Both the position numbers and the translations under genes were made by a program. This document shows, piece after piece, positions 33,167 through 36,892 of a stretch of DNA of 64,000 bases. The stretch's first letter is position 1. Every line of letters starts with the position of its first letter. Source of the stretch: Gemmatimonadota bacterium (GTDB taxonomy: Bacteria > Gemmatimonadota > Gemmatimonadetes > Longimicrobiales > Gaopeijiaceae); contig JAPPNO010000073.1 of NCBI GenBank assembly GCA_028873845.1, positions 62,001-126,000 on the forward strand, given 5' to 3'. The notes under the pieces are model-generated. The model was not told where the DNA came from and did not search any database. It was given only the letters and a program-made list of their open reading frames with translations.

Positions 33167-33838
33167 TTACGCGTCCCTTTCCACGATGCCGCTGGGACAG
33201 GACACGCCCGTGCCGCCGAGTCCGCAGTAGCCACCCGGGTTCCTGGCCAGGTACTGCTGGTGGTACTCCTCGGCGTAGTAGAACTCCGGCGCCGGGGCGA
33301 TCTCGGTGGTGATCGTCCCGAAACGGGCGGCGGCGAGTTCCGCCTGGTAGCGGTCGCGCGACTCCGTGGCAAGGCGCTGCTGCCGGTCGCCGACGGTGTA
33401 CACCGCGGAGCGGTACTGCGTCCCGATGTCGGCCCCCTGCCTCATTCCCTGCGTGGGGTCGTGTCCTTCCCAGAAGGCGGCCAGCAGCGTACGGTAGGCG
33501 ATCCGGTCGGGATCGAAGACGACCAGCACGGATTCGGCGTGGCCGGTGCCGCCGGTGCATACTTCCCGGTAGGTCGGGTTGGGGGTCGGACCGCCCTGGT
33601 AGCCGACGGCGGTCGAATACACTCCCGGAAGTTCCCAGAACCGGCGTTCGGCGCCCCAGAAACAGCCCATGGCGAAGCAGGCCGTCTGAAAGCCCGCAGG
33701 GAAGGGAGGCTTGATGCGGTTCCCGTTCACGTAGTGGATGACGGGTACCGGGAGGGGTTCGGACCTGCCCGGCAGCGCCTCGTCAGGTCCGGGGATCTCC
33801 GACTTCGAACGACGGGTAAACATTTGACGTAATTCCAT
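33167..33838 (-). CDS. msrA: peptide-methionine (S)-S-oxide reductase MsrA
   Basis: This 223-residue enzyme repairs methionine-S-sulfoxide in proteins. The catalytic cysteine is C59 in [19 protein letters not shown]. The [19 protein letters not shown] and [12 protein letters not shown] motifs are complete, and a resolving cysteine lies near the end in GTGVSCPSG. The catalytic residue is an ordinary cysteine codon here. The start may be ATG 33838 or 33823; neither has a convincing ribosome site. It heads the unit with the channel and DUF1707 genes. Confidence 0.92.
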
Positions 33839-33986
33839 TGCCAAAGGAAGGTAACAGAGTGGACCGTCTCTTGGCACACGCCGGCGGTGCCCACCTGTCC
33901 GGCGGGATTGTTTCGCAGGCTGCCGGAGGCGCTTTGATTCTCCACATCTTCCAACACCGACTGATTCACTCTCCCGGGAAGAGACC

Positions 33987-35225
33987 GTGACCTGGACTCT
34001 GAACTCGAAGACGGTGCCCGCGGGGTCCTTTCCGGAACCCCTGGGGGCGATTGTCGGACCCGCGTGCCACCGCGCCGCGCGCGCGGAGATCACTTCGTGG
34101 CCCGGATACGAGCCAACCCCGCTGAGGAATCAATGGAAGCTGGCGGAGGAGCTGGGGATCGGGTCGGTGTGGGTGAAGGACGAGAGCGGGCGGTTCGGGC
34201 TGGGAAGCTTCAAGGCGCTGGGGGGTGCGTACGGCGTGCGGCGGGTGATGAGGGCGCACGGGGGCGACAGGGGGCCGCTGACGGTGACCTGCGCCTCGGA
34301 CGGGAATCACGGCCGGGCCGTCGCGTGGGGTGCGATGCGGTTCGGTTGCGACGCCGTGATCTACCTGCCCGCACACGTCACGGAGGCGCGCGCGGAGGCG
34401 ATCCGGTCGTTCGGGGCGAGGGTGGTGCGCGTCGACGGCGAGTATGATGACGCGGTCGCGCGGGCCGACCGGGATGCGCGCGAGAACGGATGGACGGTGG
34501 TCTCGGACACCTCGTATCCGGGGTACATGGAGATTCCGCGTCTGGTGATGGTGGGATACACGGTCATGGTCGATGAGGTTCTGGGGCATGGCAGCCCATC
34601 CCTGCCCACCCACAAGGTATCTTCACCCACCCATCTGCATTCAGCCGGCCCGACGGCGCCGCCCGCCAGCGCGGAATCGGCCGACAGGGGCGCCCCATTC
34701 ACGCACGTCTTCATCCAGGGTGGCGTGGGCGGACTCGCGGCGGCGGTGATCGGGCACCTTTGGGAACGGTTGGGGAAGCGCCGCCCGGTGGCGGTCATCG
34801 TCGAGCCGGAGGAAGCGGACGGGCTGCTGTGCAGCGCGCGTGCCGGGCGGCCGGTGCCCGGCCGGGGGGACCTGCACACCGTGATGGCGGGGCTGAGCTG
34901 CCGCGAGGTGTCGCCGCTGGCGTGGGAGGTGGTGGGGGTGGGGGCGCATGCCTTCATGACGGTGCCGGATGGGGGGATCGCGCCGCTCATGTGCCGTGCG
35001 GCGCGGGGGGAGATGGGTGAGGCGTTCGAGGGGGGAGAGTCGGGGGTGGCGGGGTTGCTGGGCCTGATCGAGGTCGCGCGGGACGAGGAGAGGCGGGGTG
35101 CGATCGGGCTGGACCAGCGCTCGCGTGTGCTCGTGTTCAATACGGAGGGCGCGACCGACCCGGAGCTGTATGGGCGGATCGTGGGGCGGGGTGATAGCTT
35201 CGGTGGAGAGGCTGCGAGCCGGTAG
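33987..35225 (+). CDS. dpaL: diaminopropionate ammonia-lyase
   Basis: This 412-residue PLP enzyme converts 2,3-diaminopropionate to pyruvate and ammonia. The PLP lysine is K76 in [11 protein letters not shown], with the cofactor loop [13 protein letters not shown] and glycine loop [11 protein letters not shown]. The start is GTG 33987. An insert of roughly 37 residues rich in Ser, Pro, Thr and His (around 34590-34700) interrupts the domain before the glycine loop and probably forms a surface loop. The relative ygeX lies in a selenium-linked cluster in E. coli. Here the gene is followed 33 bp later by a putative selenoprotein gene. Confidence 0.85.
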
Positions 35226-35258
35226 CCCTTCATCCCCCTCAAACCGACGAGGCCCTCG

Positions 35259-35723
35259 ATGAGCGAACCGTTCTACACCGCGCGCGCCAGCGTCGCGAAG
35301 ATCGACGGCATCCACCGCCGCGCCACCCTGGAGGACGGCACCGAGATCGACTTCGGCGTCCACGGTCCCATCAAATCCCACTACCGCCTGCACGACGAAC
35401 CGGATCGGGCCCTCCCCGTCGACTACCTGGTCGCGGCCGCCGCCGGCTGACTGCTCGGGACACTCAACGGCGCACTGGAGGTGCGCGGGATCCCGATGGA
35501 CAACGACGCGATCCGCGTGGAGGCGGAGGGCGTGAAAGAGGTGGTGGACCGGATGGTGGTGCTGACGAAGATCCATGCGCACTACACGATTCGGCTGCCC
35601 GAGGGCGCGCCGCGGGAGAAGGTGGACCGGGCCCTGGCGACGCATGTGGCGAAGTGTCCGACGGCTCGGAGTCTGGAGGGGGCGGTGAAGGTGACCTGGT
35701 CGGCGGATGTGGCGGGGGGGTAG
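35259..35723 (+). CDS. OsmC-family protein with in-frame TGA at the catalytic cysteine (putative selenoprotein)
   Basis: One frame runs from ATG 35259 to TAG 35721-35723, with a single TGA at 35448-35450 (codon 64). The flanks are YLVAAAAG before the TGA and LLGTLNGALEVRGI after it. In OsmC/Ohr-type peroxidases this position is the peroxidatic cysteine, and the second conserved cysteine is present downstream in HVAKCPTARSLEG. Conservation continues without a shift on both sides of the TGA. A two-part hairpin at 35455-35496 fits a bacterial SECIS. Selenocysteine-containing OsmC-like proteins have been described in environmental data. The product would be a thiol or seleno peroxidase of 154 residues. 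The alternatives are a nonsense mutation or a TGC-to-TGA error. The Sec machinery genes are not in this window. Confidence 0.75.
35455..35496 (+). promoter_or_regulatory. candidate bacterial SECIS element
   Basis: TCGGGA (35455-35460) pairs perfectly with TCCCGA (35491-35496). Inside it GCGCAC (35470-35475) pairs perfectly with GTGCGC (35481-35486) around the loop TGGAG. The loop G at its second position is 27 nt past the TGA, within the usual 16-37 nt window for the conserved apical guanine. A 9/4-nt internal loop separates the stems. Confidence 0.65.
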
Positions 35724-35740
35724 GGGACCCCGACTGAACC

Positions 35741-36892
35741 CTACCGTCGTTCGAACCGCACCCGCGCGGCACGCTGGACGTCCAGCGAGTCGGCGGTCAC
35801 CCCGTACAGTTCGGACTCCGTGGCCCACGGCGTCGGGTATTTCAGGATACGGCTCGGCCACCGATAGTGCCCGACGAGCGTCGTCCCGTCCCACACATCG
35901 GCGTCGCGCACCGCCGCTCCCCGTTCAGCGGTCTTGACGACCCACAGCCGGCCCGCGCGGTCGAAGAACATGTCGTCCAGCGGAGGCTTGCGGTCGGGAA
36001 TCGCAAAGGGGTGGTTGTCGATGTCGGCGCGATCCCGCTCGCGGTCGATCCGGCTTTGCGCCCAGTCCCTGTCGGCATCACTCAACGGCGGTCCGGGGAG
36101 CGCGGGACCCTCGATCACGGACACGGTGCCGTCGGGATGATGGAGGTTGATCGAGTAGTCCGAGGTCACCGCCTCCGCCCATGTGCCGCCGTTCGCGTGA
36201 GCGTGAATCCATTGCGGTCCGAAGGGCTGATGGAGGTACATGATGCCACTGAACTCCCCCCTGGTGAACGGCACGGTTGCCTGGCTGACGGACTGGCGCT
36301 CCGCGTCCGCCATCATGACGGTGTCCACGGCCCCGTCGGCACCCACGCGGAGCCGCGCGAAAAAGCTCGGGTCGTCGCCACTGCGAACGGGACCGACACT
36401 GATCAGATCGCCCTCGCTGCTGAAGGTGAACGGAGCCATCAGGCCGACGTTGCCGGGGTGAAGCGTTCTGAGCATCCGCTGGTATTGCGCGCCCGCCGCG
36501 TCAAGCGCGAAGGCGCTGTACCGGGCGCTCTCGCGCACCCATAGTTCGCCATCCGGACCGAACTGCATGCAGCACAGGTCGCCGAATTCGCCGGGACCCT
36601 CGCCCAGGCGGCCGAAGTGGAACGCGTAGTCCCCATTGGGCTCGAAGACGCGTATCTCGGTCGATTGCCGGTCTGCGACGAACACCCGCCCCCGCTCGTC
36701 GGCCGCGACGTGCAGGATGTAGGAAAAGAGATAGGGGTCTTCGCCGGCGACATCACCGATTTCGAGGTCGATGGTGCCCTCGTAGGTGGGTACCTCCGGC
36801 AGGGCGGCTTCGGACTCCTCGCCCTCGGAACAGGCAGCCGCCGTCAGGAGGAATGCCGCGGCGATCGTCGGTCGAAACGGAGCAAGCCTCAT
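35741..36892 (-). CDS. 6-bladed beta-propeller lipoprotein
   Basis: This 383-residue exported protein starts at ATG 36892 with a signal ending in a lipobox (FLLTAAAC). Its blades include RVFVADRQSTEIRVFEPNG and the signature FGRLGEGPGEFGD. A CC pair follows the signature. It converges on the OsmC-like gene, with the stop codons only 17 bp apart. It is the last member of a minus-strand series of propeller and regulatory genes. The ligand is unknown; recognition of sugars or peptides at the cell surface is possible. Confidence 0.8.
   Translation of the reverse strand: MRLAPFRPTIAAAFLLTAAACSEGEESEAALPEVPTYEGTIDLEIGDVAGEDPYLFSYILHVAADERGRVFVADRQSTEIRVFEPNGDYAFHFGRLGEGPGEFGDLCCMQFGPDGELWVRESARYSAFALDAAGAQYQRMLRTLHPGNVGLMAPFTFSSEGDLISVGPVRSGDDPSFFARLRVGADGAVDTVMMADAERQSVSQATVPFTRGEFSGIMYLHQPFGPQWIHAHANGGTWAEAVTSDYSINLHHPDGTVSVIEGPALPGPPLSDADRDWAQSRIDRERDRADIDNHPFAIPDRKPPLDDMFFDRAGRLWVVKTAERGAAVRDADVWDGTTLVGHYRWPSRILKYPTPWATESELYGVTADSLDVQRAARVRFERR

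Follow-up and report, generated by a model that had tools for sequence, protein, structure and literature searches.

The window examined here, a 64,000-nucleotide stretch of DNA, carries a gene that very probably encodes a selenocysteine (Sec)-containing protein with the OsmC fold. We regard this gene as representing a genuine selenoprotein because its in-frame TGA codon is conserved among relatives, a SECIS-type hairpin that follows this codon exhibits covariation, the presence of the gene tracks that of selA, and tRNA-Sec is found in congeners. The window lies on contig C32 of a Gemmatimonadota metagenome-assembled genome (MAG; 4.05 Mb, 137 contigs, 96.5% complete), whose closest named relatives are Gemmatimonadota/Longimicrobiales MAGs. 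The features that constitute the gene and its predicted decoding signal are as follows.

35259-35723, forward strand: probable OsmC-fold selenoprotein gene, encoding 154 residues with Sec at position 64 and ending with the stop codon TAG
35448-35450, forward strand: predicted Sec-UGA codon (codon 64) at the peroxidatic-cysteine position, assigned from the reading frame, the alignment to 1ukk and homologues
35455-35496, forward strand: lower helix enclosing the apical hairpin (35455-35460 paired with 35491-35496), kept only in close relatives
35470-35486, forward strand: putative apical SECIS stem-loop with a 6-bp stem (35470-35475 paired with 35481-35486) and the loop UGGAG (35476-35480), assigned from covariation, synonymous suppression and folding
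35655-35657, forward strand: codon for Cys133 of the KCP motif, presumably the resolving residue and unchanged across 33 aligned homologues

The TGA is the sole interruption of the frame, and 154 residues result when it is read as Sec. The Pfam OsmC model (PF02566, cut-off 27.5 bits) spans residues 52-147, and therefore extends across the TGA, with a score of 56.8 bits (E 3e-15). Moreover, codon 64 aligns with the reactive cysteine of the Thermus thermophilus OsmC protein 1ukk. An earlier reading of this DNA, made from the sequence only, had proposed that a single in-frame TGA occupies the position of the OsmC peroxidatic cysteine and that the second conserved cysteine is retained. The frame, the Pfam match and the alignment bear out the first proposal, and the presence of Cys133 agrees with the second. 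Both redox positions of the OsmC/Ohr superfamily are thus kept, with Sec at position 64 and an invariant cysteine at position 133. An AlphaFold2 model of the 154-residue protein (pLDDT 94) yields Ohr and OsmC proteins as its best Foldseek matches (E 1e-9, identity about 20%). Together, the Pfam score above cut-off and the OsmC fold of the model place the protein within the superfamily.

The putative SECIS element is a compact apical hairpin, GCGCAC-UGGAG-GUGCGC, that resides about 19-25 nt after the TGA and within the coding sequence. The published model for bacterial SECIS elements describes a loop of 3-9 nt, a stem of 4-16 bp, a G in the first two loop positions, a spacing of 16-37 nt and an MFE of -7.5 or lower (PMC13188914). 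The apical hairpin agrees with this description and is under RNA-level constraint; its first loop G is located 27 nt after the TGA, a spacing that fits the model and that had been noted in the earlier reading. On folding, the 19-nt apical hairpin surpasses 200 of 200 shuffled sequences (z -3.5; energy -11.3). The 61-nt stretch at 35440-35500 as a whole is not outstanding (z -0.30), and the case therefore rests on comparison among relatives rather than on fold energy. A scan of positions 35200-35800 against Rfam returned nothing.

Counting from the T of the TGA, stem positions 23-28 pair with positions 34-39 to enclose the loop TGGAG, and all six of these pairs are formed in each of 64 distinct sequences. 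The pair 26-36 is C-G in 52 sequences and T-A in 12, whereas the pair 27-35 is A-T in 32, G-C in 31 and G-T in one. The commonest stem types are GCGCAC/GTGCGC, GCGCGC/GCGCGC and GCGTGC/GCACGC, and compensatory double changes are found inside each of two paralogue groups. When the partner strand is shifted by one base, pairing falls to 15% or 1%. Codon usage exhibits the same constraint. The alanine at position +8 is encoded by GCA in 51 of 54 group 1 genes, a codon that these genes rarely use elsewhere; the exceptions carry GCG, either with a change of the partner codon to Ala (L072 and L081) or with the G-T pair (L071). Relative to expectation, codon diversity drops to 0.29 at positions +9 to +16 after the TGA, whereas most of the gene has values of about 0.7-0.95. 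The sequence-only reading had described a two-part stem of 6 plus 6 bp capped by TGGAG, and the apical part of this structure is upheld by the comparison. The lower stem is fully paired (100%) in 14 close sequences, but pairing is 58% and 44% elsewhere, and it was rejected as a general feature on this basis.

The genome carries selA (503 bits), selB (315 bits) and selD (350 bits), all scoring above curated cut-offs. Searches of the draft assembly for tRNA-Sec (selC) using RF01852, ARAGORN, a pattern for tRNA-Sec and, as query, the 97-nt selC of a congener did not reveal this gene, and the RF01852 matches that were obtained in the genome were rejected as tRNA-Sec because ARAGORN and Rfam identify them as tRNA-Leu and tRNA-Ser. 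The Sec machinery on which the earlier reading had made its proposal depend is therefore present as regards selA, selB and selD, with selC missing from the draft assembly, yet tRNA-Sec occurs in 22 of 22 congeners (RF01852 matches of at least 55.8 bits; gathering score 47). ARAGORN reports tRNA-Sec with the anticodon TCA in the eight complete congener loci checked; four congeners have an RF01852 match that starts at the first base of a contig. We infer that the missing selC reflects an assembly gap. Among 121 genomes of the family, tallied by hand, 80 carry both the gene and selA, five only the gene, 12 only selA and 24 neither (Fisher p = 6e-12, uncorrected for shared ancestry); all five assemblies with the gene but no selA are <90% complete.

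Two further observations concern this machinery. In selD, which is cut by a contig end, the motif HGAGUACK also contains an in-frame TGA (L011:5-817, G000:C74), and the hairpin GGCGCAG-GTC-CTGCGCC lies downstream of that codon. One congener (G026) carries two tRNA-Sec genes on different contigs (L148 and L165), possibly owing to duplication or strain mixture.

The same genome contains a second OsmC gene (G000:C33:29772-30230) whose product is 37% identical to the window protein and which has a TGA at the equivalent position. The terminal stop codon of this paralogue is also TGA. Because the paralogue uses TGA both internally and as its terminal stop, decoding of this codon must depend on context. 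These findings bear on the possibility that read-through of the TGA inserts a residue other than Sec, whether Trp or one supplied by some other suppression. This explanation draws on the fact that selC is not in this assembly and that the case for Sec is built on comparative data. However, it is rendered very improbable by the location of codon 64 at the catalytic cysteine position of the superfamily, by the covariation of the SECIS-type hairpin, by the correspondence between gene presence and selA, and by the use of TGA as a true stop in the paralogue.

Decoding of UGA as Sec generally competes with release, and one could envisage programmed termination that yields two functional products, one of 63 residues and one of full length, in proportions set by the hairpin according to selenium supply. 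However, the 63-residue part does not include the catalytic residue and would stop partway through the helix at the centre of the model (residues 53-75), and we consider this arrangement very improbable.

Conservation among relatives favours Sec insertion at codon 64. A TGA is present at this position in 111 of 111 homologous loci, which represent 86 of 86 distinct genes, and Cys in none. All full-length close matches in the 121 family genomes carry one TGA, with the terminal stop sometimes counted additionally. A profile of the subfamily (E <= 1e-8) matches sequences in 116 of 395 genomes of the phylum, with one TGA in every match among those listed. Scattered stop codons, which would have spoken against the earlier reading, were not encountered in either scan, and a sequencing error, with TGC as the true codon, is excluded by the TGA in all independent homologues. 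The gene parts on both sides of the TGA are under purifying selection, as indicated by dN/dS values of 0.20 downstream and 0.12 upstream, and the in-frame UGA is thus flanked on either side by coding conservation, as is expected for a bacterial selenoprotein. Although standard annotation would give two short ORFs of 63 and 80 amino acids, as the sequence-only reading had anticipated, the view that the TGA is an ordinary stop in a pseudogene, or an error that splits a normal OsmC gene, is already refuted by the fact that 86 distinct genes, drawn from many independent assemblies, share this TGA and by the purifying selection that preserves the downstream frame.

No Cys form of the subfamily was found among the genomes sampled (86 distinct genes, all with TGA), and consequently the Cys/Sec exchange that had been suggested as a check is not seen. 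Two contigs (L046 and L047) of one bin labelled Deltaproteobacteria carry equal-scoring copies that are 87% identical to the window gene and are probably misbinned Gemmatimonadota DNA. Sec forms that are 54-58% identical occur in MAGs labelled Acidobacteria or Acidobacteriota (L067, L068, L069 and L079), which might reflect transfer, shared ancestry or misbinning.

The genes that precede the OsmC gene in the window are the following.

33167-34093, reverse strand: msrA, encoding an ordinary Cys in GCFWG, which runs divergently from dpaL and overlaps the dpaL start
33987-35225, forward strand: dpaL-like gene for diaminopropionate ammonia-lyase, the upstream neighbour, whose linkage does not extend beyond the genus and a near relative and which lies outside the proposed mechanism

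Together with an ion-channel-like gene, msrA and dpaL reside beside the OsmC gene in the genus and in one near relative (L057), and not further away. A link between selenium and dpaL or the operon, which had been suggested earlier for dpaL, was rejected because the neighbours differ outside this narrow group. For the same reason, no functional partner can be named.

We propose that the UGA at codon 64 would be decoded as Sec by SelB and tRNA-Sec, and the conservation and covariation of the compact hairpin with its apical UGGAG loop suggest that this structure directs the process. Sec64 would occupy the position at which OsmC/Ohr peroxidases have their peroxidatic cysteine, with Cys133 most likely serving as the resolving residue. 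In Ohr, hydroperoxide oxidises the peroxidatic cysteine, which condenses with the resolving cysteine, and lipoylated proteins act as reductants (PMC5962072). By analogy, the window protein may reduce organic hydroperoxides via a selenenic acid and then an Se-S bridge, which a dithiol, for example that of a lipoylated protein, would recycle, a route that we somewhat favour. The paralogue would be encoded likewise. The protein is most likely a selenol-based peroxidase, judging from a superfamily whose characterized relatives are distant (about 20% identity) and which also includes YhfA, among the members without known activity.

OsmC-like selenoproteins (COG1765/PF02566, motif UxxT) have been known since 2005; they were described in surveys of the Sargasso Sea and GOS data and appear in a 2026 review (PMC1088965, PMC2398784, PMC13188914). 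The sequence-only reading had likewise pointed to environmental surveys. The window protein resembles these in its OsmC fold, its Sec at the first redox position, and its in-frame UGA with a downstream SECIS. However, the published motif description sets it apart, since U-[LM]-x-G-T is found here; all 86 genes carry UxxG followed by T, and the paralogue carries UL[VTLIA]GT. It differs also in forming two paralogous lines, mainly in Gemmatimonadota, with no Cys form found. The best NCBIfam match, aligned over residues 52-150, is NF041052, OsmC-related (seleno)protein (OsmC_like_Se), but the score of 30.1 bits versus a cut-off of 95 means that the protein is not a member by that model, and the one protein of the phylum that exceeds this NF041052 cut-off is a different one and lacks a TGA. 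The Ohr/OsmC peroxidases (Escherichia coli OsmC 1nye, Chromobacterium violaceum OhrB 6eb4 and T. thermophilus 1ukk) share the predicted fold and the two redox-residue positions, whereas identity is about 20% and Sec replaces the catalytic Cys. By motif comparison with the UxxT type, we would class the window protein and its homologues as a new subfamily within an already known kind of selenoprotein.

We give roughly even odds to the broader proposal that these genes constitute an unrecognised, apparently Sec-only OsmC subfamily of two paralogous lineages (about 36% identical), spread across Gemmatimonadota and present in certain genomes labelled Acidobacteriota; a Cys form would not exist, and loss of Sec decoding would lead to loss of the gene and not to Cys reversion. 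Because a Cys form is apparently absent, the subfamily is well suited to exploring what might make selenium indispensable to an OsmC-type enzyme, and its short covarying hairpin provides a compact SECIS for studies of SelB. More generally, the literature searched says very little about the selenoproteome of Gemmatimonadota, a major environmental phylum, which now gains a well supported and widely conserved selenoprotein subfamily whose genes standard annotation would split or truncate. A separate OsmC lineage, related only distantly to the window protein, was observed in other Gemmatimonadota families (L228, L229, L231, L233 and L235). The active-site position of that lineage is likewise a TGA (LGAU[TM]SMTIALYARR); the lineage has this codon followed by the hairpin CGCGC-TGTAT-GCGCG, and looks like another group of OsmC selenoproteins.
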